NCBI GenBank assembly: GCA_035578905.1
Contig: JAQJVL010002645.1
Location: forward strand, 1-64,000
From: Stictocephala bisonia
Lineage: Eukaryota > Arthropoda > Insecta > Hemiptera > Membracidae
Reading direction: 5' to 3'
DNA length: 64,000 bases
Shown: one piece after another, positions 4,976 through 55,008 of the stretch
How the letters are laid out: the number at the start of each line of letters is the position of its first letter
Numbering within the stretch: the first letter of the stretch is position 1
Notes under the pieces: generated by a model
Databases searched by the model: none
The model's input: only the letters and a program-made list of their open reading frames with translations
Told to the model about the DNA's origin: nothing
Made by a program: the position numbers and the translations under genes

Positions 4976-4978
4976 TGT

Positions 4979-4984
4979 GTTAAA
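4979..4984. repeat. Left 6-bp target-site duplication GTTAAA
   Basis: GTTAAA lies immediately before AGTAGTATAG. The identical hexamer follows the mirrored CTATACTACT at the other end (22094-22099). A 6-bp duplication together with AGT...ACT termini is the pattern described for Polinton/Maverick elements. The assignment as a duplication follows from the alignment of both ends, with inverted-repeat identity stopping exactly at the hexamers. Confidence 0.8.
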
Positions 4985-5015
4985 AGTAGTATAGAATGGG
5001 GTGTCTGAAGCAGTG

Positions 5016-5199
5016 TGACGTCACGTCAGACCGCTACCGGGACAGGGTCAAAGGTCACCGCCTATCTGTAATCAGCCACGTGTTGACCTTGAGGTCAAGT
5101 TTACTATTGTTTACAACTGTTATTAGCCACGTGGTGACCTTGAAGGTCAGTTGGGCTAGGTCAGTGTTGTTTTGGTGTGACGTCACGCCGTTTTCGCGC
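5016..5199. promoter_or_regulatory. Terminal array of CRE, E-box, nuclear-receptor and E2F-like sites (left end)
   Basis: Within 200 bp of the tip: TGACGTCA at 5016-5023 and 5178-5185; a DR1-type GGGTCAAAGGTCA at 5045-5057; CACGTG at 5077-5082 and 5128-5133; everted AGGTCA half-sites TGACCTTGAGGTCA (within 5083-5098) and TGACCTTGAAGGTCA (5135-5149, containing an FTZ-F1/ERR-type TCAAGGTCA on the minus strand); and TTTCGCGC at 5192-5199, which matches the E2F consensus. The CACGTG plus TGACCT module is repeated at a spacing of 51 bp. The block is far more GC-rich than its surroundings. Function as enhancer/promoter is inferred from motif density; no protein binding is known here. Confidence 0.6.
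5154..5165 (+). promoter_or_regulatory. 12-mer GGCTAGGTCAGT shared with the second palindromic element
   Basis: The same 12 bases occur at 43380-43391 inside the terminal repeat of the Polinton-like element. It includes an AGGTCA half-site. Shared subterminal words can be binding sites for a common transposase/integrase or a common host factor; this is inference. Confidence 0.5.
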
Positions 5200-6466
5200 T
5201 CTTTCGTCAGCTGAACTGTTTTTTCCAACAACAGTGTTACCAACTCACGCGATGCAGAAAGAAAATATCTCAGTGCTGCCAACTCACACGATTTATTACA
5301 TTATACTATAATAAATACATATACGATTATTAAATTATTTCTATATATTAAATATAAACGCGACGTCGGGTGTTACAGTAATATTAATTTAAATTCGTAA
5401 TCCTTTTTTGTACGTTTAAACTATAATGAATACGATTATTAAAAAAATACAAACGCGTTAATAAATACGTTAAAATATGTTCGTTAAGTATTAGGAGAAC
5501 AGAACTTGGCAAGATCTCTGAACTCGGCCGTTGATATCATGAGCGCGCTATCATATTGCTTGACCCTAGTGTCAGGCGGCGCGCGCTTTATCAGTCCGCT
5601 GGTGCACGACTTTTCTTGGCTACAATCACGGTTCCTCTTCACTTCTGCTAGCCTAATACTCTATTTATTTTAAAACCTCTAAAATCGTTCACCTGAGCTA
5701 AACAAGGTATAATATGTTTAAATAAAATTAATTGAAGGATTGTTCTTAACCAGTCAACGTCTTTTTTCCCCTGATTTAATCCTATAAAGAGTATTTACAT
5801 TATAGTGCCTACATATAGTAGATGATATTCATATAATAATTAATATTTATATTTTCGAAAACTCTATGAAAAAAGACGTGCTTTAATTAAAGTGTATTTT
5901 TTATTGTTACACAGTATTAATTTGAATAATATTTTGTATTTTATATAGTATTAATTTGTTCTGACCGTTAAACAAATGAACCAGAGGTGTTTTTTTCTTC
6001 ATTCGTATTGTACTATAATAAATCCGTGTACTATAATAAGTGCATCGATTCATCAGTATGGTCAACCGAAATTTATTCTTTGTCACGTTATGATATAATA
6101 GTTGTTATTGTGCTAGCCTGATACTTTGTTTTTCATTGCATGTTGTTCGTATTCCATATATATGTGGTTTTTTCCATATATTTAGTAGATGTATAAAAAA
6201 TAAAAAGCATATTATATTTTATTTAATTTAATATTTAAAAATCGTAAGGTAATATACTATTCTATAATTTTTTAATGACATGAGTAATACAATATTTAAA
6301 TTCTGTTATGGAATAAGTTATAGTAATATTTAGTTAATTATTTAAAAATCGTAAGGAGAAGTTGTATTGCAGATATTTTTAAAGTAATAAGTCGCACAAT
6401 ATTTAAATGTTATTTAGGAATAAAGTATAATAATGTAAATTATTAAATACTGAAAACTCTATAAAA

Positions 6467-7630
6467 AATACTGTCCTTTTTAAAAACCAACTGATGTATT
6501 TGTATGGTATGAAATTGTCCAAGTCCAATTTTGCTGATGCTATGTTTCATCTGTACATACATGTATCTCAACAACAACAACCAAAGTTTAATCGATTGGT
6601 AAATATTTGTAAGAATGTTTATTTTTAATATATACTCTATATGTGGTAGTAAGACAGATGATATAAAAATTCATATAATTCAATAAAAATCCGCAAAGAG
6701 TGGAAACTTCATCTGTACATACATGTATCTCAACAACAACCAAAGTTTAATCGATTGGTAAATATTTGTAAGAATGTTTATTTTTAATATATACTCTATA
6801 TGTGGTAGTAAGACAGATGATATAAAAATTCATATAATTCAATAAAAATCCGCAAAGAGTGGAAACTTAAGTAATACAATATTTAAATTCTGTTATGGAA
6901 TAAGTTATAGTAATATTTAGTTAATTATTTAAAAATCGTAAGGAGAAGTTGTATTGCAGAAATACTGTCCTTTTTAAAAACCAACTGATGTATTTGTATG
7001 GTATGAAATTGTCCAAGTCCAATTTTGCTGATGCTATGTTTCATCTGTACATACATGTATCTCAACAACAACAACAACCAAAGTTTAATCGATTGGTAAA
7101 TATTTGTAAGAATGTTTATTTTTAATATATACTCTATATGTGGTAGTAAGACAGATGATATAAAAATTCATATAATTCAATAAAAATCCGCAAAGAGTGG
7201 AAACTTAAGTAATACAATATTTAAATTCTGTTATGGAATAAGTAATAGTAAAATTTTGTTAATTATTTAAAAATCGTAAGGAGAAGTTGTATTGCAGAAA
7301 TACTGTCCTTTTTAAAAACCAACTGATGTATTTGTATGGTATGAAATTGTCCAAGTCCAATTTTGCTGATGCTATGTTTCATCTGTACATACATGTATCT
7401 CAACAACAACAACCAAAGTTTAATCGATTGGTAAATATTTGTAAGAATGTTTATTTTTAATATATACTCTATATGTGGTAGTGAGACAGATAGAATGTTT
7501 ATTTTTAATATATACTCTATATGTGGTAGTGAGACAGATATAAAAATTCATATAATTTAATACAAATCTACAAAGAGATGAAACTTCATTAGTAGACCTA
7601 TCTGTACATGCATTTTCCTCAACAACAACC
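6467..7630 (+). repeat. Tandem repeats of about 330 bp (with partial 160-bp unit)
   Basis: The phrase CATCTGTACATACATGTATC recurs at about 6548, 6709, 7041 and 7379, giving one interval of about 161 bp and two of 332-338 bp. Each long unit contains a CAACAACAAC run, a GATTGGTAAATATTTG segment and a CCGCAAAGAGTGG segment. The mirrored area of the right arm (about 19440-19830) holds only about 2.5 short, diverged units, so copy number has changed since the arms formed. Confidence 0.85.
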
Positions 7631-10600
7631 AAAGTTTCTAGTTGGCTCTGGTAACCTAAATGGTGACATTTTTTCTTTCATAAATGGTTCAATAATACTG
7701 TATTTACAGTATTTATTCAAATAGTAATTTATATTTAATATAGTAGTAATTTGTTGTGATCATTTAATATTCAAACCAGATGCGCCTTCTGCTAATGGAT
7801 AGATGTGTCTGATATTTGTTAGTAAATTTGATATTTAGTTGATATTGGTAATGATTTAAATTATGAGTCAAGTAGTTCAATTATTATTCCCTCACACGTT
7901 AGTTAAAACAATCGAATAATATTGAATTGCGAGCCATATTTAGACTCTATATAATATTACAATAGGTAACATTCACTTTAAGATATCAAATAAAGTCCCT
8001 CTATTTACAAACTATCCCATTATTTTAACCTAATAACATAAATAATTACTTTATAGATGTAAATTGCTGTTATTTATTATAAATTTACTACAAGACTTCA
8101 ATAAGTTATATTCTACTTATGACAAGGGTATCAAAATAAAATTTGATACACATTTCATTTCAGACTTGTTAAACAAAACGTTATTCATCATTTGCATACT
8201 TAAGTCCTTTTGTTGAGAAGATTTTTTTTTATGTGAGTGTATAAATATAGAATTGAAAAATAATAGTTTATTTTCTCTAATATATTACAATAGGCTATAG
8301 ATGTGAAGTTCTCTATACATTTCATTTCAGATTTCCATTAGGATCTTACGCACAAGAGCCTTAAGTAAAATGTTAATCTAATATGTTAAACACATTTTAG
8401 CTTGCAGTTCTGTAAATATTAAATGGATAAAAATGTTTAATTTCTCCAAGAAAGGATCTTCATACATGTCTAAACTATTATAATATACCACGATTAAAAT
8501 AAATGGCACATTAAGTTAAAAATGTGTTTTTTCCTACATTGTAAAGATAATGAATTGAATAATACTTTCTCTTATTAATGAATTGAGTAAATAAAACAAC
8601 AATGAATCCATTAATAACTGTATAGTGAATTAAATGTCGTATATTATGTTGATAATTTATATTAATACGAGCCTTTTCTTATAATTTCAACATAAATATT
8701 ACAAACACGTATTGAAAAAAAACCGAACTTTCAAATAACTTTAAAAAACCTGTGACTGATTCAACACGAATAATTTATTTGATAACTTCTTTATTATAGA
8801 TTTCGGTATTTTTTAAAAATAAGATATATTAAACGTTTATCGCAATTAAAAGTTATACATTGTTACTGATTTACTCATTAAATAAAAACTAAACTCATTG
8901 GCTCAATTTGAACGAAAAAAAACAATATAAAAATGGAATATAATACAATATAGATACATATGCCCTAAGTTTAAGATGAAACGTTTCTTGTATATGAAAA
9001 ATCTATCCAAGTTCAATTTTGTCAGTGTCCGTATGTGTGCAAGGGAGAGAACTAAGTATCAGGCTTGTCAATTAGTTGAAAATCAGGCCAATAATACGTG
9101 TTTTTTATCCAACGTAAAGCTCTATGTTACCTTAGTTTTACTGGTTGCTAGACTTTTTATAATACAGTCAAACTCCGTTAGTAACAAGATTATATGGGTT
9201 ATTCACACTCATCCTACTCATGTTATCATTCATATTCACCTTATAATACGTTCAATCTTGTGTTGCCTTCTCATATCTAAGAATAATACTTTATATTGTT
9301 TTCTCTTAAAATGAGCCGTGAGAGTAAATACTATAATAATTGTTATGTTTAAATAATTTGTATAACACAGGTTATACCAAATCAACCGTTTAAGTTTATA
9401 CTTCTTTTGTATAAACAGACGTATATTCGGTTTAATGATAGAAATAAAGATGGAATAAAAATGATAGTAAAATAAATTAAACTTAGCTAAGTAAATGAAT
9501 TTCGTGTTTTCATAAAGATATTTTTACTAGTATCCGCATTATAGATTTCTAAAGAGATGGTAAATATTAGAGCCTGCAGTTCTGTATATCTGGATAAATA
9601 TTAAATGGATAAAAATGTTTAATTTCTCAAATAAAGGATCTTCATACATGTACAACTATTATAATAAACATGAGAGAAACGTCTAAATATAAATGACACT
9701 TTAAATTAAAAAGCATTATTTTTCCTATTTTGTAAAGATAGTTTCTCTTATCAATGAATTGGGTAAATAAAACAACAATTTTATGAATCCATTAATAACA
9801 TTATAGTTTTGTCAATGTCCGTACGTTGTGCAGGGGAGAGAACTGAGTATCAGGCTTGACAGACTAACGTATTACTGTCGGCTGAGCAGAATGAAAGAAA
9901 AATAAACGAACAAATTAGTTTAATTTCTTATTAGTATAGCGCAAATAAATGCAAATCTATAGCATTAAATGAAAATAAGAGAAATATCGATTAAAAAGTA
10001 AGCTGACTAAATGATTGTAAATTTCTGGTTCAAGTGATGTCAAGTGATATGATAGCGCACTCGAATAGACTCAAATTAAATCACTTACTTATCGAATGAA
10101 AATATAAACTTTGCATTAAAAGATGTATAAAATATGCACACTGTGACTCTATAGTAAAAACCCATTTAGTGGGAAAGCAAAACTGATTCACCACGAGTAG
10201 TTACATTTTAGAACTTACTAAAACCTAGTGTCATAACTATGACCCACCTTTTTGATCACTTTGTTGATGGCAAACAAAGAATCTATATATAGAACATTCC
10301 TTCCATAATACGAGAATATTTGTATAACAATTAGTCTAAACTAAATGTACCAGTTGTATTAACTTTGAAACCTAAGTAAATCGGTCAAAAAATCATATAT
10401 GAGTAACTCAAGTAATAAAATATAAATTTCTTTATAATTACAATGATTTTTAATTACGTTCATTCTAATTTGATGTGATTAAAATTTTAGTTTTTGTCAT
10501 TAACATTTTCTGTGTGATAAACATAGCCAATAAATAAATAAAACACCAATGTTAATTATTCTGAATTTTTACATTTTAGTAAACAAGTACTATGATTAAT

Positions 10601-11750
10601 CGTTTAAGAGCTTTATATCAAAACATCTTCTTTACTATGTATCGTACATATACGTATCATTAATATAAAATACTGGATTTATAAGATATAACATGATTTT
10701 ACACGGTTAATTTTCAGTATTTCCGAGGCTATAAATATCTAATAATCGCGCAAATTGTATAGCGATAACAATTATATGAATAAACATAAAATAATGGATA
10801 TACACACATCTATTACATTTAAAAAAGATAACTAATAATTATCTAGGTGTTACTATAGTTTTAGTTAATTTATACAATCATTCACCTCAATGACCCCATA
10901 AATTTGAACTAATATAAGACATCAAAACCATAAAAATGTATAAATCAAACGATTTATTTTAAATTACCAACTGAATTAGTTTAGGATAAAAAAATAAGGT
11001 ATTATACAAATGATACACTTCTTATATCACCATTAGGATGTTATACATAAGAGCTTCAAATAAAATGTAAGTCTAAAATGCTTCGCATATTAGAGCTTGC
11101 AGTTTTGTAAATCAAACTATACATTAAATGAACGAAATATTTTTTATTTCTCAAAGAGGATATCTTCATACGTATTCAACCACTCTATTAAAACTTAGCG
11201 AAACGATTTAAATGTGAATGACACTATGTTTAAGCAGGTTTTTTTCCTATTTTGTAAAGATAATCAAACGTATAAAACAACAATTTTATAATTCCGTTAA
11301 TAACTACTTAGTGAATTGAATGTTACATAGTATATTACTAGTTCATAAAATGGTCTTTTGCTTATGACTGATTTTAAGTGAATAATTTATTTTGGTAAAC
11401 ATGACAAAACAGATATGACCAACTTCGTTACATAGAACTGGTGTCAGTCCATTTAGAGATATACACTTATGTAAATTTTTTTGTATAATCCTTATTGCTT
11501 GACTTCTTTTAGATTACAAAATAAAACTACTTAGTCTAGAATATACAAGCCTTGAAAATATTAAATATTTTTTAAATGGACAAAAATTTTCATTTGTCAA
11601 ATAACGGATATAAATTCATATACAACAATTATATCATACTTGAGCCAAACTATTAAAATTAAAGTTCATCAACGACTGTAAAGATAATTTATATAGTCAA
11701 ATATTTGGGTAAATAAAACATTATACGAGACGTTCTATGCAAGAAAGATA
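7631..11750. other. AT-rich arm interior with four diverged copies of an internal repeat
   Basis: Related blocks of about 180-250 bp lie at about 8390-8640, 9570-9800, 11090-11350 and 11540-11720. They share a GCAGTTCTGTAAAT-like start, an ATTAAATGGATAAAAATG-like middle and an AATAAAACAACAATTTTATG-like end. A shorter repeat containing GGGAGAGAACTAAGTATCAG occurs at about 9020-9070 and 9815-9865. The mirror images are present in the right arm (about 15330-15540, 15770-15990, 17280-17525, 18460-18700). A 112-codon open frame at 8976-9314 is partly mirrored by a 98-codon frame at 17773-18069 but shows no recognisable domain and is probably fortuitous. Confidence 0.6.
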
Positions 11751-11810
11751 TTATTATTCTTTATTTATTTGCAAATGTTTCACATATTTATTTACAAATA
11801 TTGTCCTTGA

Positions 11811-11986
11811 TCAGAATCTTTGAACTTGTGATTCTTCAACTCCTTTCAGCTCGGCCATTAGTCTGTTGTAGAGTTCTTCCCCACACTCTTTAGGACCGAT
11901 GCTTTCAAATAATTTAATAAATGAGTATTCGTGATTTCTAACTTTGTTGCAAACGTAACAATCAGAACCACAAGTAGCTGTCTCTG
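11811..11986 (-). pseudogene. Unidentified Cys-containing gene fragment, left-arm copy
   Basis: On the minus strand, an open stretch of about 55 codons begins right after a splice-acceptor-like TATATTTCAG and reads CGSDCYVCNKVRNHEYSF followed by a charged helical stretch. It corresponds to the 3' part of the longer copy at 14801-15226. It differs there at three residues (T/A, S/P, Y/G) and ends seven codons later, because a TAA in the other copy is CAA here. The upstream coding part is missing and is replaced by the arm of the nested palindrome. I do not recognise the family. The C-x3-C-x2-C spacing could bind metal, but that is a guess. Confidence 0.5.
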
Positions 11987-13651
11987 AAATATATTTTTCC
12001 ATGCCAAGGAAAATAACACATATGTTTTAATTGTCTATGTTACAATATAAATGTGTTGTTGCGTAATATTTAAAATAATTACTAGCAGTTTAAAACGTTC
12101 AACTGTTTATTATCCTCCAACTAAATTGTTGTACATTACAAGTTATGTGTTCTGAATAAGTAATTTATAGAAAAAGAACATTTATTGAGAAAAGTTTCGT
12201 TGAATCACATAAATATTATTAAGTATAATTTAATACTGATACGTTATATGTTTAAGGCTTGAAGATAAATGAAACATATTACTTATAGTAAAATTTCTTT
12301 ATTCAAAATATTAATATAGTAAAACACAGTTAGTTTGGATACATACTATCTATTAACATAGCTTTATTCATTAAAATTATACGCATATAATACAATTTTA
12401 AAACAATCGTTATAAACTCAATTTGTCCTACTTCAAATCTACGTTTAGTTTGAAATATAATACATAATTACATTACGTTTTAAACTTTAATTTTTACTAT
12501 TTTAATTAAAGAATATCACAAAGACAGATAGAGTAGCTTACGGTAACTTTTTAGTGCAGCTTCATTGAATTCGAACTGTACACATACACATATAAAGGGG
12601 CTTATATTACTAATTGTACTGTATAATTTATAATTTTTATTGTGAATATTTAATGTTAAACACTAATGTGACATGTTACTTTATGTCTCATGCACTGTCT
12701 TATTAGTCAATTCAGAATTTGCAATATTATCCTATAACGTATTAGTTATAGGACAACAAAAATATGAAAATTTAATTACGTTTATGTATGTAAATAAAAT
12801 GTACACAGAAATGAGGCTAACAATATTGTTAATAAAAAACGATTGGTTCTAATAACCAGTGTGAATGTAAATATAGTTAATCTTAGCACGATGACCCGTA
12901 CTAATAAGTCAAGATAACTATAGATAAAGTAAGAGGCCAACGCTGAAATTGATTTGTTGTAGCATGAGTACAAATTAGATTTCCTGTTTAACATTAAATA
13001 TTCACAATAAAAATTATAAATTATACAGTACAATTAGTAATATAAGCCCCTTTATATGTGTAAGTGTACAGTTCGAATTCAATGAAGCTGCACTAAAAAG
13101 TTACCGTAAGCTACTCTATCTGTCTTTGTGATATTCTTTAATTAAAATAGTAAAAATTAAAGTTTAAAACGTAATGTAATTATGCATTATATTTCAAACT
13201 AAACGTAGATTTGAAGTAGGACAAATTGAGTTTATAACGATTGTTTTAAAATTGTATTATATGCGTATCATTTTAATGAATAAAGCTATGTTAATAGATA
13301 GTATGTGTGTCCAAACTAACTGTGTTTTACTATATTAATATTTTGAATAAAGAAATTTTACTATAAGTAATATGTTTCATTTATCTTCAAGCCTTAAACA
13401 TATAACGTATCAGTATTAAATTATACTTAATAATATTTATGTGATTCAACGAAACTTTTCTCAATAAATTATTTATTCAGAACACATAACTTGTAATGTA
13501 CAACAATTTAGTTGGAGGAGAATAAACAGTTGAACGTTTTAAACTGCTAGTAATTATTTTAAATATTACGCAACAACACATTTCTATTATAACATAGACA
13601 TTTAAAACATATGTGTTATTTTCCTTGACATGGAAAAATATATTTCAGAGA
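11981..13651. repeat. Nested off-centre palindrome inside the foldback
   Basis: A second inverted repeat pairs 11981-12662 with 12987-13651 (position sums about 25,632-25,649, centre about 12,824), with a 324-bp loop at 12663-12986. Its axis is about 700 bp to the left of the axis of the outer palindrome (about 13,525-13,540), so it is a separate folding event. Its left end meets the inner end of the outer left arm within a few bases, at the CAGAGA of the splice-acceptor-like site. The loop contains an 83-codon frame (12782-13033, minus) with no recognisable feature. Confidence 0.85.
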
Positions 13652-15065
13652 AAACAATGAAGTGCAAAATTACCATTCTCATTTATTTAACGCAACAACA
13701 AACATTATATTTAACAATTGTGGTTTTGCTTACTTTATTTGTAATACATTACTACAATAAGTGTGCTCTATTTGTCTTTGAACGGCATTTGGGTTACTTT
13801 GTTCTTTCCTCATTTTGACTTAATCATCTGGCCTGGCTAGTTTAAAATAGACATATGGTTTTATTTATACAAACGTCATATGAATTATTTTGAATGCCTC
13901 TTAATATCAATTCTAATCAGACAAAGTGAATGAGAATTAGCTTTGAAAGTAATTTATAGTTTGCATTCCATATTATTATTTGAGTGTTACTTAATATCAA
14001 TGCTAATAATTCACTGTGTTTGAGAAATAAATTATTATCTAAATTACAGTTTCCATTCCACATTAAATGCATAAATAACATGAATACAACGTAAATAGGT
14101 ATCGTAAAATAAAATAAATACCCTATACCTAAGTTCATTATGTTAATCCTACATACTTAAATGTATTATACGAATATAAAGTTTAGTTATGTACATTTGT
14201 ATTTATATAGCTAGACAAAGTATAGTTTTGTTCGTACAGTATATGGTTTTTTAGTGCTACCTTAAGTATAAAGTTCATTATTTGGATGAAAGGGAAAGTA
14301 TTGAATGTTCAACTGCACTTCACATTCAAATTCATTTATTGGACTTCACAATGTATAGTTTTACAATGGCTGTCAACTAAAAGTAACCACGTTACAAACA
14401 AATCATATCAAGTTTTTTGGGAAAAAATAAATAAAAATATATGCTAACTAAAGACAAAAAATAATACAACTGTAAAATGGCTGAGATTCGTTTTAATAGC
14501 ATCATGGCAGTTGATTTAGTTTCATATTCTTTAATTTTTATTATACTAAAAATAACTAAAATATCACAAGACTTTTTTATATGTGTTATGGGTATTGAAA
14601 TTTAACGTAAGTTATTTTCATTCGTATGTGTATTTTTAGCTTCAAAAACCGGTATTATTAATTTATTGAAAATTGTCTGTACTATAGTAAACATATGTGA
14701 CTTATAAATATTATCACACTTGTTAAGAGTGAACTGTTTGTATGAAACAGTATCTTTAAGATAAAATAACAACTTCTGGATCCTATTTAAGCATAACCGT
14801 TTGATTTTGAAAACATTTTATATAAATCTGTTACTATTCACCCACCACTTTTTCAACACAGTTTTCAGGTTACATAAAGGTATTGTTCAGACACTATATC
14901 ACACTCCGGGTAACAACATAGGTACAATGTATACAAACTTGCTGATGGTCATGTTTGAGCTGAGATTTGCAAAACCTAGCTGGAGTCTAGAAGCTGAAGA
15001 AAAACTTCAAAGAATGGCTGAAATGGTCGAGGATGTAGAAAATATAAAATGTAAGAGGGACCGTA
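13652..15065. other. Single-copy spacer between the nested palindrome and the right arm
   Basis: This is the only substantial part of the 17-kb element, besides the loop at 12663-12986, without a mirror partner. Most is A+T-rich and featureless. Its right end (about 14,870-15,065) carries the upstream part of the gene fragment described at 14801-15226. It may preserve sequence whose left-side counterpart was lost when the nested palindrome formed. Confidence 0.6.
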
Positions 15066-15226
15066 CAGAAACAGCTGCTTGTGGTCCTGATTGTGGCGTT
15101 TGCAACAAAGTTAGAAATCACGAATACTCATTTATTAAATTATTTGAAAGCATCGGTCCTAAAGAGTGTGGGGAAGAACTCTACAACAGACTAATGGCCG
15201 AGCTGAAAGGAGTTGAAGAATCATAA
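14801..15226 (+). pseudogene. Unidentified gene fragment (longest copy, possibly spliced)
   Basis: A 141-codon open frame whose last 110 or so codons look like real protein. They contain an amphipathic acidic segment (about residues 75-100), then C-x3-C-x2-C, then a conserved block ending in LKGVEES. The first 25 residues are probably not coding: a pyrimidine-rich tract and acceptor-like CACAGTTTTCAG lie at about 14,850-14,868. A donor-like GTAAGAG sits at about 15,051 and a CAG at 15,066, where the mirrored copy has an acceptor-like CAG. An AATAAA polyadenylation-like signal follows the stop at about 15,259. I do not recognise the product. It may be a captured host gene fragment or a remnant of the element's own gene. 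Confidence 0.45.
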
Positions 15227-18200
15227 GTTCAAAGATTCTGATCAAGGACAATATTTGTAAATAAAGATATGAAAAATTTTTAAATTATTAAAGAATAAGA
15301 ATATCTTTCTTAACAGAACAATCTCGTATAATGTTTTATTTACCCAAATATTTGGCTCAAGTATGATATAATTGTTGTATATGAATTTATATCCGTTATT
15401 TGACATTTACGGATGTACAATACGGATGTACAATAATGTACAACATTTAATGTACAAATGTCATTTGTACATTATTTAAATGTACAAATGACATTTTTTG
15501 TACATTTAAAAAATATTTAATATTTTCAAGGCTTGTATATTCTAGACTAAGCCGTTTTATTTTTGTAATCTAAAAGAAGTCAACCAATAAGGATTATACA
15601 AAAAAAATTTACATAAGTGTATATCTCTAAATGGACTGACACCAGTTCTATGTAACGAAGTTGGTCATATCTGTTTTGTCATGTTTACCAAAATAAATTA
15701 TACTCTTAAAATCAGTCATAAGCAAAAGACCATTTTTATGAACTAGTAAAATACTATGTAACATTCAATTCACTATGTAGTTATTAACGGAATTATAAAA
15801 TTGTTGTTTTATCCGTTTGATTATCTTTACAAAATAGGAAAAAACCTGCTTAAACATAGTGTCATTCACATTTAAATCGTTTCGCTAAGTTTTAATAGAG
15901 TAGTTGAATACGTATGAAAATCCCCTCTTTGAGAAATAAAAAAATGTTTCGTTCATTTAATGTATAATTATATTTACAGAACTCTAAGCTCTAATATGTA
16001 AAGCATTTTAGACTTATTTGAAGCTCTTATGTATAACATCCTAATGGTGATATAAGAAGTGTATCATTTGTATAATACCTTATTTTTTTATCCTAAACTA
16101 ATTCAGTTGGTAATTTTAAATAAATCGTTTGATTTTTACATTTTTGTGGTTTTGATGTCTTATATTAGTTCAAATTTATGGGTTCATTGAGGTGAATGAT
16201 TGTATAAACTAACTACAGTAAAAATATAGAAACACCTAGATACTTATTAGTTATCTTTTTTAAATTTAATAGATGTGTGTATATCCATTATTTTATGTTT
16301 ATTCATATAATTGTTATCGCTATACAATTTGCGCGTTTATTAGATATTTATAGCCTCGGAAAAACTGAAATTTAACCGTGTAAAATCATGTTATATCTTA
16401 TAAATCCAGTATTTTATATTAATGATACGTATATATGTACGATACATAGTAAAGAAGATGTTTTGATATAAAGCTCTGAAACGAATAATCATAGTACTTG
16501 TTTACTAAAATGTAAAAATTCAGAATAATTAACATTGGTGTTTTAGTTATTTATTGGCTATGTTTATCACACAGAAAATGTTCATGACAAAAACTAAAAT
16601 TTTAATCACATCAAATTAGAATGAACGTAATTAAAAATCATTGTAATTATAAAGAAATTTATATTTTATTACTTGAGTTACTCATATATGATTTTTTGAC
16701 CGATTTACTTAGGTTTCAAAGTTAATACAACTGGTACATTTAGTTTAGACTAATTGTTATACAAATATTCTCGTATTATGGAAGGAATGTTCTATATATA
16801 TATAGATTCTTTGTTTGCTATCAACAAAGTGATCAAAAAGGTGGGTCATTGTTATGACACTAGGTTTTAGTAAGTTCTAAAATGTAACTACTCGTGGTGA
16901 ATCAGTTTTGCTTTCCCACTAAATGGGTTTTTACTATAGAGTCACAGTGTGCATATTTTATACATCTTTTAATGCAAAGTTTATATTTTCATTCGATAAG
17001 TAAGTGATTTAATCTGAGTCTATTCGAGTGCGCTATCATATCACTTGACATCACTTGAACCAGAAATTTACAATCATTTAGTCAGCTTACTTTTTAATCG
17101 ATATTTCTCTTATTTTCATTTAATGCTATAGATTTGCATTTATTTGCGCTATACTAATAAGAAATTAAACTAATTTGTTCGTTTATTTTTCTTTCATTCT
17201 GCTCAGCCGACAGTAATACGTTAGTCTGTCAAGCCTGATACTCAGTTCTCTCCCCTGCACAACGTACGGACATTGACAAAACTATAATGTTATTAATGGA
17301 TTCATAAAATTGTTGTTTTATTTACCCAATTCATTGATAAGAGAAACTATCTTTACAAAATAGGAAAAATAATGCTTTTTAATTTAAAGTGTCATTTATA
17401 TTTAGACGTTTCTCTCATGTTGATTATAATAGTTGTACATGTATGAAGATCCTTTATTTGAGAAATTAAACATTTTTATCCATTTAATATTTATCCAGAT
17501 ATACAGAACTGCAGACTCTAATGTTTACCATCTCTTTAGAAATCTATAATGCGGATACTAGTAAAAATATCTTTATGAAAACACGAAATTAATTTACTTA
17601 GCTAAGTTTAATTTATTTTACTATCATTTTTATTCCATCTTTATTTCTATCATTAAACCGAATATACGTCTGTTAGACAAAAGAAGTATAAACTTAAACG
17701 GTTGATTTGGTATAACCTGTGTTATACAAATTATTTAAACATAACAATTATTATAGTATTTACTCTCACGGCTCATTTTAAGAGAAAACAATATAAAGTA
17801 TTATTCTTAGATATGAGAAGGCAACACAAGATTGAACGTATTATAAGGTGAATATGAATGATAACATGAGTAGGATGAGTGTGAATAACCCATATAATCT
17901 TGTTACTAACGGAGTTTGACTGTATTATAAAAAGTCTAGCAACCAGTAAAACTAAGGTAACATAGAGCTTTACGTTGGATAAAAAACACGTATTATTGGC
18001 CTGATTTTCAACTAATTGACAAGCCTGATACTTAGTTCTCTCCCTTGCACAACATACGGACACTGACAAAATTGAACTTGGATAGATTTTTCATATACAA
18101 GAAACGTTTCATCTTAAACTTAGGGCATATGTATCTATATTGTATAATATTCCATTTTTATATTGTTTTTTCCGTTCAAATTGAGCCAATGAGTTTAGTT

Positions 18201-21200
18201 TTTATTTAATGAGTAAATCAGTAACAATGTATAACTTTTAATTGCGATAAACGTTTAATATATCTTATTTTTAAAAAATACCGAAATCTATAATAAAGAA
18301 GTTATCAAATAAATTATTCGTGTTGAATCAGTCACAAGTTTTTTAAAGTTATTTGAAAGTTCGGTTTTTTTCAATACGTGTTTGTAATATTTATGTTGAA
18401 ATTATAAGAAAAGGCTCGTATTAATATAAATTATCAACATAATATACGACATTTAATACACTATACAGTTATTAATGGATTCATTGTTGTTTTATTTACT
18501 CAATTCATTAATAAGAGAAAGTATTATTCAATTCATTATCTTTACAAAGTAGGAAAAAACATATTTTTAACTTAAAGTATCATTTATGTTTAATCGTGGT
18601 ATATTATAATAGTTTAGACATGTATGAAGATCCTTTCTTGGAGAAATTAAACATTTTTATCCATTTAATATTTACAGAACTGCAAGCTAAAATGTGTTTA
18701 ACATATTAGATTAAAATTTTACTTAAGGCTCTTGTGCGTAAGATCCTAATGGAAATCTGAAATGAAATGTATAGAGAACTTCACATCTATAGCCTAATTG
18801 TAATATATTAGAGAAAATAAACTATTATTTTTCAATTCTATATTTATACACTCACATAAAAAAAATCTTCTCAACAAAAGGACTTAAGTATGCAAATGAT
18901 GAATAACGTTTTGTTTAACAAGTCTGAAATGAAATGTGTATCAAATTTTATTTTGATACCCTCGTCATAAGTAGAATATAACTTATTGAAGTCTTGTAGT
19001 AAATTTATAATAAATAACAGCAATTTACATCTATAAAGTAATTATTTATGTTATTAGGTTAAAATAATGGGATAGTTTGTAAATAGAGGGACTTTATTTG
19101 ATATCTTAAAGCGAATGTTACCTATTGTAATATTATATAGAGTCTAAATATGGCTCGCAATTCAATATTATTCGATTGTTTTAACTAACGTGTGAGGGAA
19201 TAATAATTGAACTACTTGACTCATAATTTAAATCATTACCAATATCAACTAAATATCAAATTTACTAACAAATTTCAGACACATCTATCCTTTAGCAGAA
19301 GGCGCATCTGGTTTGAATATTAAATGATCACAACAAATTATTACTATATTAAATATAAATTATTATTTGAATAAATACTGTAAATACAGTATTATTGAAC
19401 CATTTCTGAAAGAAAAAAGTCACCATTTAGGTTACCAGAGCCAACTAGAAACTTTGGTTGTTGTTGAGGAAAATGCATGTACAGATAGGTCTACTAATGA
19501 TGTTTCCTCTCTTTGTAGATTTGTATTAAATTATATGAATTTTTATATCATCTGTCTTACTACTACATATAGAGTATATATTAAAAATAAACATTCTTAT
19601 AAATATTTACTAAACTTTTAGTTGTTGATGAGATACATGCATATACAGATGAAGTTGTCGCTCTTTGCAGATTTTTACTAAACTATATGAATTTTTATAT
19701 CTGTCTCACTACCACATATATTAAAAAATAAACATTCTTACAAATATTTACCAATTGATTAAACTTTGGATGTTGTTGAGATACAGATGAAGTTGCCGCT
19801 CTTTGCAGATTTTTATTGAATATTACTTAAAACTACCTGTGTAAGCTGTTTCAAAGATATTCTAACTGATTTGTATATAAAAATTAATTACATTTACTAT
19901 AGTACAACGAAAATAATGATTTAGTATGAACAATGTACTTCATATAGTATAAATACATGCAATATTGAAATAAAATATGCAAACAGAAAAACCAGAATCC
20001 TTTTTAATCTGTTTAAATTTACAGCCATAACAATTATTGTATTATAACGTGACAAAGAATAAATATCGATGCACTTATTATAGTATACTACGAATGAAAG
20101 CATAAGTTGTCTACACTGACAACAAGAAAAAATACTACTTTACACTTTATATTTATTATAGTAAAATTTAATAATCATATATGTATTTTATATAGTATTA
20201 TGCAAATAATCGTGTGAGTTAGCAGCACTGTGAAAAAACAGTTGGTACATTTGATATAATATAAAGAAAAACCGATTTTGTTTGAACAAATTAATAATAT
20301 ATTAAATAGGAATTATTGGAAAAATACATTTTATATAGTATTAATACATCATATAAAATACAAAATATTACTATTATTATTCAAATTAATACTGAATACT
20401 GTGTAACAAGGAAAATACACTAGTTAATTGAAGCACAACCTGTCCTTTTTCATAGAGTTTTCAAAAATATAAATATTAATTATTATATGAATATCATCTA
20501 CTATATGTAGGTACTATAATGTAAATACTCTTTATAGGATTAAATCAGGGAAAAAAAGACGTTGACTGGTTAAGAACAATCCTTCAATTAATTTTATTGA
20601 AACATATGATACCTTGTTTAGCTCAGGTGAACGATTTTAGAAGTGTTCTCCTTACGATTTTTAAATAATTAATTAAATATTACTATAACTTATTCCATAA
20701 CATAATTTAAATATTGTGTTACTTATGTCATTACAAAAATATAGAATAGTATATTACCTTAGGATTTTTAAATACTAAATTAATTATTAAATAAAATATA
20801 ATATGCTTTTTATTTTCTATACATCTACTAAATATATGGAAAAAAACCACTTAAATATGGAATACGAACAACATGCAATGAAAAACAAAGTATCAGGCTA
20901 GCACAATAACAACTATTATATCATAACGTGACAAAGAATAAATATCGGTTGACCATACTGATGAATCGATGCACTTATTATAGTACACGAATTTATTATA
21001 GTACAATACGAATGAAGAAAAAAAAAACTCTGGTTCATTTGTTAAACGGTCAGAACAAATTAATACTATATAAAATATAAAATATTATTCAAATTACTAC
21101 TGTGTAACAAGAAAAAATACACTTTAATTAAAGCACGTCTTTTTCATAGAGTTTTCGAAAATATAAATATTAATTATTATATGAATATCATTTACTATAT

Positions 21201-22093
21201 GTATGAACTATAATTTAAATATTCTTTGTAGGATTAAATCAGGGAAAAAAAAAAGACGTTGACTGGTTAAGAACAATCCTTCAATTAATTTTATTTAAAC
21301 ATATTATACCTTGTTTAGCTCAGGTGAACGATTTTAGAGGTTTTAAAATAAATAGAGTATTAGGCTAGCAGAAGTGAAGAGAAACCGTAATTGTTGCCAA
21401 GAAAAGTCGGCTGATAAAGCGCGCCGCCTGACACTAGGGTCAAGCAATATGATAGCGCGCTCATGATATCAACGGCCGAGTTCAGAGATCTTGCCAAGTT
21501 CTGTTCTCCTAATACTTAACGAACATATTTTAACGTATTTATTAACGCGTTTGTATTTTTTTAATAATCGTATTCATTATAGTTTAAACGTACAAAAAAG
21601 GATTACGAATTTAAATTAATATTACTGTAACACCCGACGTCGCGTTTGTATTTAATATATAGAAATAATTTAATGATCGTATATGTATTTATTATAGTAT
21701 AATGTAATAAATCGTGTGAGTTGGCAGCACTGAAATATATTTTTTTCTACAATTAATCGTGTGAGTTGGTAACACTGTTGTGGAAAAAACACAGTTAGTA
21801 CATTTTAAGAAAAACAGATTTTTTTTTGTGCATCTTTCACATATGGCACCACATCAGCTGATACTAGCAGACGAAAGAGCGCGAAAACTGCGTGACGTCA
21901 CACCAAAACAACACTGACCTAGCCCAATTGACCTTCAAGGTCACCACGTGGCTGATAACAGTTGTAAACAATAGTAAACTTGACCTCAAGGTCAACACGT
22001 GGCTGATAACAGATAGGTGGTGACCTTTGACCCTGTCCCGGTAGCGGTCTGACGTGACGTCACACTGCTTCAGACACCCCATTCTATACTACT
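15066..22093 (-). repeat. Right arm of the giant inverted repeat
   Basis: Reverse-complement partner of 4985-11986. Right-arm-specific differences include a duplicated segment. About 120 bp containing a GACGTTGACTGGTTAAG motif occurs at about 20520-20640 and again at about 21220-21340, next to a private stretch at about 19850-20450. There is also a local expansion of TGTACAAATGACATTT-like hairpin units at about 15410-15505. These private changes argue that the two arms have evolved separately and are not one sequence assembled twice. Confidence 0.9.
21880..22070. promoter_or_regulatory. Terminal CRE/E-box/nuclear-receptor site array (right end)
   Basis: Mirror image of the array at 5016-5199. 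It contains the same two TGACGTCA sites, two CACGTG boxes next to TGACCT/AGGTCA pairs, and the DR1-type site (now TGACCTTTGACCC) near 22,020. The E2F-like octamer is changed: this arm reads GAGCGCGAAAACTG. Retention of most sites in both arms shows the array belongs to the terminal repeats. Confidence 0.6.
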
Positions 22094-22099
22094 GTTAAA
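22094..22099. repeat. Right 6-bp target-site duplication GTTAAA
   Basis: Direct copy of the hexamer at 4979-4984, immediately after the terminal CTACT. Confidence 0.8.
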
Positions 22100-43312: not shown

Positions 43313-43318
43313 ACTGGT
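43313..43318. repeat. Left 6-bp target-site duplication ACTGGT
   Basis: Precedes AGTAGAGGGG. The same hexamer follows the mirrored CCCCTCTACT at 55003-55008. Confidence 0.85.
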
Positions 43319-43398
43319 AGTAGAGGGGAAACGGGGGTTTCACGACGCCCCATGATGAGTTTTCGCCAAATGATGATTCGGCTAGGTCAGTTTTTTTT

Positions 43399-43555
43399 AA
43401 TGAGGTTCTAATGACCTTAACGAGTTTTTAATGAGGTTCTAATGACCTTAATGAGGTTCTAATGACCTTAACGAGTTTTTAATGAGGTTCTAATTGACCT
43501 TAACGAGTTTTTAATGAGGTTCTAATTGACCTTAACGAGTATTTAATTGACGCTA
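43399..43555 (+). repeat. Subterminal tandem repeat (TTAATGAGGTTCTAATGACC-type)
   Basis: Five or so units mixing TAATGAGGTTCTAATGACC and TTAACGAGTTTT, about 30 bp each with a shorter variant. They are mirrored at about 54,765-54,925. They sit between the tip and the GGTCACGTGACC palindrome and may be transposase or replication-protein binding repeats; function is inferred from position only. Confidence 0.8.
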
Positions 43556-43574
43556 ATGGGATTGGGTGGGGTAA

Positions 43575-43824
43575 GGTCACGTGACCGGATCCAAGATGGC
43601 GGTCCCGGATCCAAGATGGCTGCCCCCATTCCCTCCCAAAATGTCCCTCAAATTCCCAAATTTCCCTCAAATTCCCTTTTTGTACTATATAAAATACACT
43701 ATTAGCCTTGTTATACTATATAAAATGCATTATTTTCTCTTATACTCTATAGTAAATCTATACTCTGATTGGTCCATTTTTTGTGACGTCATCCAAGATG
43801 GCGGCGCCCATGTTTCCCGCCAAA
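43575..43824. promoter_or_regulatory. E-box palindrome, YY1-like, CRE, CCAAT and E2F-like sites
   Basis: GGTCACGTGACC at 43575-43586 is a perfect palindrome around CACGTG. CCAAGATGGC occurs at 43591 and 43611 and CCAAGATGGCGGC at 43793-43805 (YY1-like core). An inverted CCAAT box (GATTGG) lies near 43,767, TGACGTCA at 43784-43791 and TTTCCCGCCAAA at 43813-43824, an E2F consensus match. The density and the contrast with A+T-rich surroundings suggest a promoter/enhancer. The same E-box and YY1-like sites are readable at the right end near 54,690-54,745. Confidence 0.6.
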
Positions 43825-44115
43825 TTTTCTAACCTCAGTTCTCCTAACCTCACATTTCCCTCCAAATTCCCTTGTTATACTATATAAAATACACTCTTAA
43901 CCTAACATTTACCACGTCATACTATATAAAATACACTCTTAACCTAACTTTTACCATGTTATACTATATAAAATGCACTCTTAGCCTAGCTATACTATAT
44001 AAAATAAACTTTTTTTTTTGTCCAAGACAGCGGCCGGAAACAGTGCTACCACCCTCCCCTCCCAAATTTCCCTCAAATTCCCTCGTTATACTATATAAAA
44101 TGTACTCTTAGCCAA
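43680..44115 (+). repeat. Repeated TATA-like units (ACTATATAAAAT)
   Basis: ACTATATAAAATACACT-like units occur about seven times (near 43,684, 43,712, 43,880, 43,920, 43,963, 43,996 and 44,090), alternating with TCCCTCAAATTCCC-type pyrimidine-rich blocks. Each unit resembles a TATA box. They may be a repeat-generated promoter cluster or merely a minisatellite; no adjacent gene is read from them. Confidence 0.65.
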
Positions 44116-44123
44116 AATGCACT

Positions 44124-44310
44124 CTATTTACAGTCTGGGTTGGGCTAACCCGGGTTAACACAACGTGGGTTAATAAAACCCGGGTTAACACAACGTGGGT
44201 TAACTCTGGTTAAATCAACGTGGGTTAATAAAACCCGGGTTAACACAACGTGGGTTATTAAAGCCCGGGTTAAATCAACGTGGGTTAATAAAACCCGGGT
44301 TTTATGGGAC
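44124..44310. repeat. 30-bp minisatellite (copy A), CCCGGGTTAA/CGTGGGTTAATA units
   Basis: About five to six units with a CCCGGGTTAACACAACGTGG core, preceded by CTCTATTTACAG and CTGGGTTGGGC. The same leader plus array recurs at 46,094-46,345, upstream of the DUF8207-like gene. Open frames across the array (10-residue periodic on the minus strand) are by-products of the 30-bp period. Confidence 0.85.
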
Positions 44311-45011
44311 CTTGACCCAAGTTTCCACTCCACCCAAGGGGTATAGGGTTATTGCACTCTGTGCAAAGGCGCGTTTTTTATTATAGTGGGTGTCCCCAGT
44401 AGGCATAATCCCACTTACTTTAATGTAACTTGCCCCAACCATCGCAAGCTACGGTGATAGCCACTCCATAACAAAATTGCTACCTCCCAGTATTATTTTT
44501 GTGTTTTTTTTTATTTTTGTTTTTTTTTTTGGATCCCATATAAGTCTAGCCGCCACTTTACTTGGAGAAGCCTTTCAATGTGACGCACAAACTTACAAAG
44601 GGCTTTTATTTTTTATTTTTTTTTATTTTTCTTGTTACTAAAAATATCCCTTACTCACACCCTGGACTTACAGAGTTTAAGCCAGCCATAGAGTGTTACA
44701 CACATCCAGATACACGTACCGTACGAGGGCCCATTGCATACTAGATGCATCTGCGACTCAAGGTCTTACGGGGATTAGTCCAGCCCCAAGCTGCAGGACC
44801 GCCTCAGGACTTATGCGTTTTACGGCTGCCTTAGAGAACAGTCGGGCGATTTTTTTATTGAATTTGGGCCGCCCTCACCTTGACGTTACGGTTATTGCAC
44901 TTACACACACACATACACACTGGGTTACGGACCGTTAGACCACCCCAGAGCCCACACACCATGGAACTACAGATTACAAGTTTTAAAACTTAAGTCTCTA
45001 AATGCTTCTTT
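44311..45011. other. Arm region between minisatellite and DUF8207-like gene
   Basis: Contains T-rich runs, a GGATCCCATATAAG patch and short open frames of 60-81 codons with no recognisable features. It is downstream of the minus-strand gene, so probably its 3' untranslated/terminal region. Its degraded mirror is at about 53,220-53,960. Confidence 0.5.
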
Positions 45012-46064
45012 CTACAATTGGAAGTTATTATAGTCTTTAATAATCCGTGCTCCTTTAAGTTCTTCTAATATTGTAATAATCTCACTGTCATGGTCAGTGT
45101 TTCCCGCCTTTTTTGAGGCAATCAACAAACGCAACCTGTCTACTAATTGATTAGGATCGTCCCAGCTCGAGTAATTAACCTTTGAAAATTTTAAAACATC
45201 CTTGTATACTTGTCTCCTTACTTCATCCATTTCATTTCCATCGTCTGAACTACTATCAAAGTAATCTTGCTCATTTGAACTATACGTCTCCCCACCCTTA
45301 TCTGCATCAAGTGAATTGTTTTCAATCTCATCCACGTGATACCTACCTAATTTTTCCATTTCATTTTCATCGTCTGAACTACTATCAAAGTAATCTTGCT
45401 CATTTGAACTATACGTCTCCCCACCCTTATCTGCATCAAGTGAATTGTTTTCAATCTCATCCACGTGATACCTACCTAATTTTACAGGTAACCTATCTGG
45501 AGTTTTTGAACGTTTCCTAGGATGAAAAGTACTGTCTATTGGATTATTTACATACATTGTACTACTTTCCTCACTTATTGGTGTTAAACCGTTAATTAAA
45601 GGTTTAATAATGTTTTTATATTTAAGACCCCTGCTTCCTTTCACCATTCCATTATTAGGATTTATATAGGATTTTGTTTGCAGCAACATTTTCCTGTACG
45701 AATCCAAATCTCCATCTCTATAGTCTTTAATTGATGTTTTTATGGGTTTCCTCATAAAAACTAACTCGAATAGATCAGATGACCCAGGATATACCTTACC
45801 GTCAATCAAGATGTTATTTCCTTCAAATTTAACTGACTGTGTACCCATTTTAAATTGTTCACTTCCTTTATCGAAAGTGATCCCATAAGTATGGTCAGCT
45901 GCATTATTCAAGTTTTTTATACTAAACTGTAACCATGACATTAGATCACTCCCAACCTCACTATGTGCATCGTTACCTTGAATTGAGGACACTTTTAAAG
46001 CTTGAGCTTTCTCAGGTTCAGTGGAAGCCGAAGCTGATACAAGATCTTGTTCATTCGAATTCAT
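45012..46064 (-). CDS. DUF8207-like protein of a Polinton/adintovirus-type element
   Basis: A 350-residue soluble protein. Residues about 55-165 resemble, from memory, the DUF8207 family found in arthropod genomes with Polinton-like DNA polymerase genes: FKMGTQSVKFEGNN, a VYPGS-SDLFELVF turn, and GLKYKNIIKPL. Function is unknown, possibly structural. A basic KR-rich stretch at about 181-191 could be a nuclear localisation signal. An acidic 43-residue segment (starts at residues 195 and 238, KLGRYHVDEIENN...) is tandemly duplicated almost exactly. The tail (285-350) is helical. The start is the first ATG and a TATA box lies 35-42 bases upstream. The frame is complete and uninterrupted, unlike the polymerase next door. 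A degraded mirrored copy lies in the right arm. Confidence 0.65.
   Translation of the reverse strand: MNSNEQDLVSASASTEPEKAQALKVSSIQGNDAHSEVGSDLMSWLQFSIKNLNNAADHTYGITFDKGSEQFKMGTQSVKFEGNNILIDGKVYPGSSDLFELVFMRKPIKTSIKDYRDGDLDSYRKMLLQTKSYINPNNGMVKGSRGLKYKNIIKPLINGLTPISEESSTMYVNNPIDSTFHPRKRSKTPDRLPVKLGRYHVDEIENNSLDADKGGETYSSNEQDYFDSSSDDENEMEKLGRYHVDEIENNSLDADKGGETYSSNEQDYFDSSSDDGNEMDEVRRQVYKDVLKFSKVNYSSWDDPNQLVDRLRLLIASKKAGNTDHDSEIITILEELKGARIIKDYNNFQL
45225..45482 (-). repeat. 129-bp in-frame tandem duplication
   Basis: Two nearly identical 129-bp units (about 45,225-45,353 and 45,354-45,482) inside the DUF8207-like gene, encoding 43 residues each. Near identity at DNA level means a recent duplication, and the frame is kept. 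Confidence 0.9.
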
Positions 46065-46098
46065 GTTTAATAATAATAAAGAATTTAGAAAACAACTC

Positions 46099-46106
46099 TA
46101 TTTATA
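46099..46106 (-). promoter_or_regulatory. TATA box of the DUF8207-like gene
   Basis: Minus-strand TATAAATA located 35-42 bases before the ATG at 46064. The short distance implies a leader of only about 5-10 bases if transcription starts about 30 bases downstream. The leader-plus-minisatellite context is duplicated at 44,122, where the equivalent base pattern (CTCTATTTACAG) has lost the TATA match. Confidence 0.55.
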
Positions 46107-46107
46107 G

Positions 46108-46345
46108 CCTGGGTTGGGCTAACTCGGGTTAAATCAACGTGGGTTAATAAAACCCGGGTTAAATCAACGTGGGTTAATAAAACCCGGGTTAACACAACGT
46201 GGGTTAATAAAGCCTGGGTTAAATCAACGTGGGTTAATAAAACCCGGGTTAACACAACGTGGGTTAATAAAACCCGGGTTAACACAACGTGGGTTAATAA
46301 AACCCGGGTTAACACAACGTGGGTTAATAACACCCGGGTTTACAG
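46108..46345. repeat. 30-bp minisatellite (copy B)
   Basis: About eight 30-bp units of the same type as copy A, alternating AAATCAACGTGGG and AACACAACGTGGG forms. It lies directly upstream of the TATA box of the minus-strand gene, so it may act as an upstream promoter array. The degraded mirror is at about 51,775-52,050. Confidence 0.85.
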
Positions 46346-46413
46346 GTCTGGTGGGAAATGTTCTTCTGGCTGGAGCGACACTCACTTTTCTGACCTCTGA
46401 TTGGTCGAGAGCG

Positions 46414-46553
46414 GCCACCTGCCGGATCCAAACGTTATTGATTGTTTCGGAGAGTGGGGAAGCCACCTGCCGGATCCAAACGTTATGGATTGTTTCGGAG
46501 AGTGGGGAAGCCACCTGCCGGATCCAAGCGTTATTGATTGTTTCGGAGAATAC
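46414..46553 (+). repeat. 48-bp direct repeat, 2.9 copies
   Basis: Units start at 46414, 46462 and 46510 with GCCACCTGCCGGATCC and end with TTTCGGAGAGTGGGGAA. They lie between the minisatellite and the polymerase remnant, in a GC-rich block with two inverted CCAAT boxes (GATTGG near 46,398 and 46,641). Probably part of a divergent promoter region for the two genes. Confidence 0.9.
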
Positions 46554-47090
46554 CTTCGGGGGTTTCCGGCGACTGTCGGCTACCTTCGTACGCTCTTCAC
46601 CTGTCGGCTACTGGTCTGGCGCGCACCTAAATGCTACGCTCTGATTGGTTGCCTCCCTCACACGTAATCTTTCTCACTTCTGCTCTTGCGCTCGCGCCGA
46701 TCAGACGTACCTTCACTTTGCTCCCACTCGATATCAGTAATACTTTAACTCTTTATTATATTTTGGATGCCGTTCTCTGTACGGTATTTCGAAAGTGATA
46801 TACCAAGAGTAAGTCCCGTATACAGTATAATTAGTCCTTACGTTTGATTGACTAAAGTTTGAATACCCTTGCTTTTGAGCTTTTAATTCGATTTGAATTA
46901 CTATTAATATCATTTAATTTTGTTTCAATATTATCACAGATGGAATCCGTACGCCATAAACCGCAATATTGTGACCATTTCCCGTCGGTTCGACACTACA
47001 GGAACTGACCTCCTTACCGTTCTGACCGTACATAAAAATAAAAATTATGTCCGAAATAAATAACCACCTAAACAGGCTCGGGGGAGTTAA
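46554..47090. promoter_or_regulatory. Candidate promoter region upstream of the DNA polymerase remnant
   Basis: About 540 bp without open frames; it is GC-rich for the first 150 bp and then A+T-rich. It lies between two divergently oriented genes. No clear TATA box on the plus strand; the assignment rests on position only. Confidence 0.3.
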
Positions 47091-48530: not shown

Positions 48531-48559
48531 ACTTTAAGTATTTGTAGTTTTTCGGTTTG

Positions 48560-48780
48560 GCGGGTTTTTTATTATTTCATGAAGCAAGTCCTTTTAGTAA
48601 AAAAGGGCATGCCCCGGTCCGCACCTACTTTGTTCAAATTTTTTAAATTTACAACCCCTTGGGCAGGTTGAGCAAGACTTTTTAGGTGTTGGTATGTATT
48701 TAAATCTAAAATTTCCCCCCAGGAGCCCCAGCTCGAGTAATTAACCTTGGAAAAACCCCGCACCCGGGGCACCTAAAGGG
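48560..48780 (-). pseudogene. Fragment related to the C-terminus of the DUF8207-like protein
   Basis: On the minus strand near 48,735-48,760 the sequence encodes FSKVNYSSW, identical to residues 293-301 of the complete gene at 45012-46064. The rest of the 66-codon frame is not similar. The fragment abuts the polymerase remnant close to the palindrome axis and lies where sequence quality falls, so it may be a genuine rearranged fragment or an assembly chimera. Confidence 0.45.
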
Positions 48781-53959: not shown

Positions 53960-54165
53960 CATAAAACCCCCGGGGTTTTTTTAAAACCCACGTTGTTTTA
54001 AACCCCGGGCTTTAATAACCCACGTTGTTTTAAAACCCCGGGGTTTTTTTAACCCCAAACCGTTGTTTTAAACCCAAAAGGGTTAACCCACGTTTTTTGG
54101 TTAACCCGGGTTTTTTTTAAAACCCACGTTGTTTTAAAACCCGGGGTTAGCCCAACCCCGACGGA
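53960..54165. repeat. Degraded mirror of minisatellite copy A
   Basis: CCCGGG/TTAACCCACGTTG-like units with inflated T and C runs. Mirror partner of 44,124-44,310. Confidence 0.6.
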
Positions 54166-55002: not shown

Positions 55003-55008
55003 ACTGGT
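55003..55008. repeat. Right 6-bp target-site duplication ACTGGT
   Basis: Direct copy of 43313-43318, immediately after the terminal CTACT. Confidence 0.85.

Follow-up and report, generated by a model that had tools for sequence, protein, structure and literature searches.

A 17.1-kb whole-element palindrome with Polinton/Maverick-type ends in Stictocephala bisonia, one copy of a multiplied family

We analysed a window of 64,000 nucleotides of Stictocephala bisonia DNA (contig JAQJVL010002645.1, positions 1–64,000; here C2645:1-64000, the source assembly totalling 1.683 Gb over 11,105 contigs), which contains a 17.1-kb element (element 1) that is a palindrome over its entire length. The whole palindrome integrates as a unit and has multiplied in palindromic form. 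We consider it likely that the family to which element 1 belongs is non-autonomous, palindromic over the whole element and of the Polinton/Maverick type, formed by snap-back of a replicating strand and integrated by helper proteins. The window holds a second palindrome (element 2), which carries remnants of a DNA polymerase gene. Element 1 and its copies represent a multiplied family of mirror-image palindromes, probably of Polinton type, a variant so far undescribed in the literature searched: queries on Polinton/Maverick with palindrome, foldback or inverted duplication returned no description of a palindromic Polinton, subscription journals lying mostly outside their coverage. Coordinates are given in Table 1.

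Table 1 Features of elements 1 and 2 in the window and opposed end pairs of element 1 elsewhere in the assembly
Feature	Position	Strand	Length (bp)	Remarks
Element 1, whole-element palindrome	4985..22093	.	17,109	AGTAGT/ACTACT ends
Left target duplication GTTAAA, element 1	4979..4984	+		
Right target duplication GTTAAA, element 1	22094..22099	+		perfect copy of the left one
Left arm, element 1	4985..12662	+		BLAST of element against itself
Axis spacer, element 1	12663..12984	.	322	
Right arm, element 1	12985..22093	-		with 1,414 extra bases
Right-arm-only stretch, element 1	13652..15065	.	1,414	
Minisatellite-like stretch (159/338-bp), left arm of element 1	6388..7637	+		rearranged relative to right arm
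C2089 pair			16,373	duplication TATTTT
C1121 pair			18,478	duplication AATGTA
C5982 pair			18,748	duplication CCTATC
C85 pair			17,600	duplication ACCAAG
C8421 pair (L046, L041)	581-19783		19,203	duplication CCTTTA
C4200 pair			18,298	duplication ATTGAA
Element 2, palindrome	43319..55002	.	11,684	AGTAGA/TCTACT ends
Left target duplication ACTGGT, element 2	43313..43318	+		
Right target duplication ACTGGT, element 2	55003..55008	+		
350-aa open frame, element 2 left arm	45012..46064	-		PF26634-type relatives
Broken DNA_pol_B_2-type polymerase pieces, element 2	47091..48222 (47091-47483, 47705-47953, 48031-48222)	+		inward-reading

Structure of element 1 in the window

An earlier note, made from the letters of this DNA, had described the ends, the 17.1-kb length, arms pairing 4985-11986 with 15066-22093 and the GTTAAA duplication, all of which were borne out when we aligned the element against itself by BLAST. 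The termini read AGTAGTATAG...CTATACTACT. The arms pair as the note had claimed, and its estimate of their extent, about 7 kb, proved too short, since the palindrome runs further inwards, with 11981-12662 pairing with 12985-13651 at 95.8%, down to the short axis spacer. The outermost 228 bp of the arms align without gaps at 97.4% identity (E 2.8e-108), and further arm-to-arm alignments show 94.1% over 1,161 columns and 95.9% over 4,549 columns. The arms differ in a minisatellite-like region (~6388-7637 on the left, 19600-20645 on the right) and by the stretch found only in the right arm. Because an open frame (14765-15226) crosses the outer junction of that stretch, its loss from the left arm and its insertion into the right one are equally likely. 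Among the 80 longest repeat matches, no inverted match of at least 309 bp joins the two flanks of element 1, and the palindrome therefore ends at the duplication.

A 29-bp satellite of 74 copies (2819-4970) stops 14 bases short of the left tip.

Copies with independent target duplications

We searched the whole assembly with the first 316 bp of element 1 and scored 40 places of 992 first-look candidates, which yielded 41 matches at 85–100% identity. For 30 of these 40 places the flanks were fetched too; the left tip of the window is among the 30, and its right end is absent from the scored places. Of the Polinton/Maverick end motifs, (AGT)2//(ACT)2 or (AG)3, the former is present at both ends in the window and at the tips of the fetched ends, where the sequence is AGTAGT in 30/30. 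Besides the window copy, seven opposed end pairs lie 16–19 kb apart among the fetched places. The other copies with independent 6-bp duplications for which the earlier note had proposed a search do exist: like the window copy with GTTAAA, six of the seven pairs are flanked by perfect 6-bp duplications, each different, and a random hexamer match would be expected once in 4,096 trials per pair. That the whole palindrome integrates as a unit follows from these single duplications, which flank entire elements. Many fetched copies, including that on C85, match the window copy over the first ~409 bp only, so that several interiors stand behind one tip.

The end pair on C210 was rejected as a single element because its flanks are unrelated. 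The 19.2-kb pair on C8421, which has the same tips, is perhaps a relative of ordinary architecture.

Conservation of the axis

A search with the region 12560-13080 gave 153 candidates, of which 40 were scored, and the 103-bp inner arm was found on both strands at 37 of these 40 axis places. The spacer measures 322 bp in 9/37 two-sided places, the window included, and 325–569 bp in the other 28. In three of the six other pairs with duplications, a two-sided axis lies at the middle of the element, offset by 1.5 bp (C5982), 10 bp (C4200) and 52.5 bp (C1121); the window copy, with the extra bases in its right arm, has an offset of 715.5 bp. Sampling of C1121 at the outer ends (99.67% alike over 1,816 bp), in mid-arm (mirror copies over 1,200 bp, 99.58%, gapless) and at the axis shows this copy to be palindromic along the whole element, and the data strongly suggest the same for C5982 and C4200.

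Because the axis is conserved among copies, it is the palindrome itself that has multiplied, and in a multiplied family with a conserved axis the palindrome was therefore inherited and not formed at the window locus. Head-to-head repeats are common in genomes, and such a structure could be built in situ, either by two insertions placed head to head or by inverted duplication of an element already inserted. This origin is already contradicted by the single duplication around the whole palindrome in the window, by those around the element at 6/7 other pairs and by the two-sided axes, and we regard it as extremely improbable.

Likeness of arms within and between copies

We compared the first 1,450 bp of the ends in 27 rows, corresponding to the 30 loci minus four that were too short, plus the right end of the window copy. 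The two ends of a pair are 99.93% identical in C1121, 99.65% in C2089 and in C4200, and 100% in C5982 and in C85; the window copy reaches 96.2%. For these six copies, the median identity to ends on other contigs is 72–83%. The left and right ends of C210 and C8421 are 72.7% and 73.2% identical, the latter over 712 columns. Several copies thus show the pattern of within-copy identity in their outer 1.45 kb, and the mid-arm of one, C1121, carries it further inwards. In the window copy, the divergence of the arms outside the minisatellite is uneven (178 differences in 6,199 columns; chi-square p ~1e-48 for 300-column blocks).

The main rival for the cause of this likeness accepts the same family and the same integration, lets chromosomal gene conversion keep the arms alike without any hairpin form, and derives the first palindrome from recombination between inverted Polintons. 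We rate it somewhat below an even chance. Conversion tracts would give the patchiness seen between the arms of the window copy, where blocks diverge by 0.9% to 12.6%, and a conserved axis needs no repeated snap-back; yet 99.65–100% identity over the outer 1.45 kb in 5/8 pairs requires either very frequent conversion or very recent insertion. Palindromes of the Y-chromosome type, which undergo arm-to-arm conversion, likewise have arms more alike than their age predicts; unlike element 1, they are immobile and lack target duplications.

Gene content and relation to Mavericks

The longest stop-to-stop frame within element 1 has 153 codons. The absence of Polinton genes stated in the earlier note holds as far as tested: a six-frame Pfam scan of 12985-22093, stops being read as X, returned no family at E <= 0.1, the left-arm minisatellite and the spacer lying outside this whole-frame scan. 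No protein-primed DNA polymerase, integrase, ATPase, protease or capsid gene was thus detected by Pfam in the right arm, and none of ten open pieces (seven from element 1) matched a Pfam family above the cut-off. Scans of open pieces of both elements against Pfam, NCBIfam and PHROGs gave nothing convincing or above cut-off within either element, and the 152-aa frame of element 1 has no confirmed relative among viral contigs. Because Polinton genes were not detected, we class element 1 as a gene-less element of Polinton type and not as a Polinton.

In a study of vertebrate Mavericks (PMC8097293), (AGT)2//(ACT)2 is the commonest end motif and occurs with perfect 6-bp duplications, and intact elements measure 12,723–24,620 bp, with terminal repeats of 46–1,447 bp and two gene modules. 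Element 1 has in common with these Polinton/Maverick (adintovirus-like) elements, as described there, the end motif, the perfect 6-bp duplications and a size within the vertebrate range. It differs from them in that its inverted repeat is the entire element and in that it has no detectable gene; element 2, at 11.7 kb, lies below their size range.

A second palindrome with polymerase pieces

Element 2 is palindromic about an axis at about 48994. Its arms differ at one column only in the outer 250 columns, and relaxed alignment extends the palindrome to 48883/49105. Element 1, searched against all other parts of the window, has a single match, outside element 2, and shows no similarity to that element. 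Element 2 escaped an automated scan for end pairs, since its duplication ACTGGT (AC...GT) extends the inverted repeat by chance. It has a 6-bp duplication and an AGT end, followed by AGA as second triplet in place of the exact (AGT)2 motif.

Its type B DNA polymerase gene is present as broken pieces only. Of 41 candidates for a 65-aa piece, 37 match it at 51–80% identity, 13 of these 37 having a precomputed PF03175 assignment; the animal-named relatives come from two bivalves, Mya arenaria and Mizuhopecten yessoensis. The pieces are collinear on the relative P0028 (residues 58-178, 704-781 and 807-870 of 1,360), and a weak further piece matches residues 945-967 (E 0.047). In a Pfam rescan of six relatives, PF03175 was passed by three and P0028 passed no model; the pieces of element 2 themselves likewise pass no Pfam model. 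The gene is broken by a deletion and by frame changes and is directed towards the axis, which lies ~770 bp past the last strong match. The pieces read inwards like the first gene module described in PMC8097293, and the second module would fall beyond the mirrored half. In the few short pieces searched, no integrase, capsid or ATPase was seen.

The 350-aa frame has 27 relatives among 1,887 candidates, with PF26634 in 25/27. The 131-aa polymerase piece alone found no relative, and neither two of the polymerase pieces nor the 350-aa protein family has a confirmed match in viral contigs. Two back-translated motif scans gave two contigs and none, the two showing no convincing similarity (best 16 residues, E 0.023), and one PDB search of a piece returned a single match, which was not used (E 1.3). 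We discounted a weak match of polymerase type at ~49396-49509 (+ strand) as fortuitous: it contains a stop, has a best E of 0.007 and falls within the mirrored arm.

Within 201 kb sampled from the assembly, positions 12-2600 of the stretch C1:1280001-1290000 (L018) hold a relative of element 2, at 67–92% DNA identity by piece (83–90% for the longest) and with a longer polymerase match than element 2 itself. No inverted repeat over 60 bp occurs in the 10 kb of L018, and neither the outermost 250 bp of element 2 nor the PF26634 gene was found in this stretch, which was read short of the other end of the relative. A relative of element 2 therefore exists that is unmirrored within the stretch read. 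A search with the tip of element 2, in which 40 of 680 first-look candidates were scored, found several opposed pairs 9–15 kb apart.

Opposed element-2 tips at C1699:137983-139609 lie just 1.6 kb apart and perhaps represent a miniature derivative.

Element 2 has a poor consensus with inflated homopolymers in its centre and over the greater part of its right arm (~48.2-54.75 kb), which calls for caution in gene calls: identical neighbours per kb amount to 42–55% there versus 27–36% elsewhere. The quality recovers sharply in the last 250 bp. Spealman et al. (PMC7229812) describe such a failure in nanopore reads once an inverted-duplicate junction has been passed, and the right arm of element 2 in this respect resembles what an assembly or fold-back read artefact would leave. 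For element 1, such an artefact is scarcely credible: both arms are clean, unlike the right arm of element 2, its flanks differ, with no inverted match of at least 309 bp between them among the 80 longest repeat matches, and from contig to contig the copies vary in their flanks and in their duplications.

The polymerase pieces also bear on a further alternative, that element 1 comes from another, perhaps undescribed, superfamily of DNA transposons with 6-bp duplications, AGT ends and very long fold-back arms. The want of any Pfam-detectable gene in element 1 agrees with it, and 6-bp duplications occur in further superfamilies. We nevertheless judge it unlikely, as the exact (AGT)2//(ACT)2 motif with a 6-bp duplication is the Maverick combination and as element 2 nearby, which resembles element 1 in its AGTAG tips and its 6-bp duplication, contains the DNA_pol_B_2-type pieces. 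Foldback/Galileo-type elements are likewise dominated by long, internally repetitive inverted repeats; they are not known to have Polinton ends and are far shorter than element 1. Galileo is classed with P elements in PMC3573991.

Origin and maintenance of the palindrome

The snap-back, helper and hairpin steps of the scheme that we favour build on the known replication of Polintons and adenoviruses. The mobile unit is the palindrome itself, two arms of 7–9 kb with the same (AGT)2 tip and a spacer of 0.3–0.6 kb between them. During protein-primed replication, (i) a displaced single strand may have snapped back, folded on itself and been extended, which would (ii) yield a linear duplex in which each end bears the same replication origin. 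Because element 1 has no Pfam-detectable gene, a helper acting in trans would be needed; polymerase and integrase would probably come from Polintons of the same genome. The displaced strand of a palindromic element would fold into one long hairpin, and arm-to-arm mismatch repair at this stage could keep the arms of one copy alike while copies diverge. Mirror-image elements probably arose at least twice, because no sequence similarity is detectable between elements 1 and 2.

Defective adenovirus genomes offer a parallel: they are protein-primed linear DNAs in which one end is duplicated in inverted orientation, so that an origin is kept at each end. They are transient products of infection, whereas here we find a genome-resident family with target duplications and conserved axes.

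Several observations weigh against the snap-back and helper scheme or against parts of it. The putative place of element 1 among the Polintons draws on its ends and its duplication; the view of the earlier note, of a non-autonomous palindromic derivative with Polinton ends, accordingly stands for the Maverick-type ends, the duplications (6/7) and the two-sided axes (37/40), and does not extend to Polinton membership beyond ends and duplication. The birth that the note proposed, from a head-to-head replication intermediate or hairpin-ended linear DNA, stays conjectural. Pfam detected no Polinton gene in the open pieces or the six right-arm frames of element 1, and no helper with element 1 tips was identified. 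The end pair on C210 has no matching duplication, and C8421, despite a perfect one, has ends alike over ~418 bp only. The axis appears one-sided for C2089, C173 and C1900, and the axes of C85 and C8421 were not among the 40 scored places. Axis and spacer are conserved between copies, so the palindrome is not made afresh in each cycle. A simple snap-back, unless followed by conversion or recombination, does not predict arms that diverge from stretch to stretch as those of the window copy do. C2089 is nearer to an end on another contig (99.79%) than to its own opposite end, as is the left end of the window copy (96.89%). The first 1.45 kb would equal the terminal repeat in an ordinary Polinton as well, and the comparison therefore supports a homogenisation of ends. 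Palindromy of the element 2 type is known from the window copy alone.

A wider extension of the favoured scheme, which we put forward only tentatively and hold to be more doubtful than not, is that mirror-image Polinton satellites form a stable class. The palindrome would then be a heritable replicon whose arms are homogenised by repair of 7–9-kb hairpins, and helper Polintons would copy it, perhaps package it at genome length, and integrate it, much as defective-interfering genomes ride on adenoviruses.

Protein-primed replication of Polintons has been deduced from their genes. A family whose inverted repeat spans its whole length would record how this replication can fail and yet persist, and the two arms of each copy serve both as an internal clock and as a test of how strands fold, which makes the form in which Polintons replicate testable in genomes. 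The copies further indicate that palindromes of 16–19 kb can spread in an animal-type genome.

Other features of the window

Outside both palindromic elements, the Pfam, NCBIfam and PHROGs scans identified a DDE_3 and an OTU frame. The former, of 499 aa, belongs to a transposon at 35219-38526 with inverted repeats of ~528 bp and TA on both sides, which we take to be Tc1/mariner-like. The latter, a 154-aa frame at 60714-61178 with a match to OTU-like proteases, adjoins a 70-bp tandem repeat (60290-60624). A further nearly perfect palindrome of 856 bp lies at 30852-31707, is 93.5% identical to itself in inverted alignment and shows no clear target duplication by eye.

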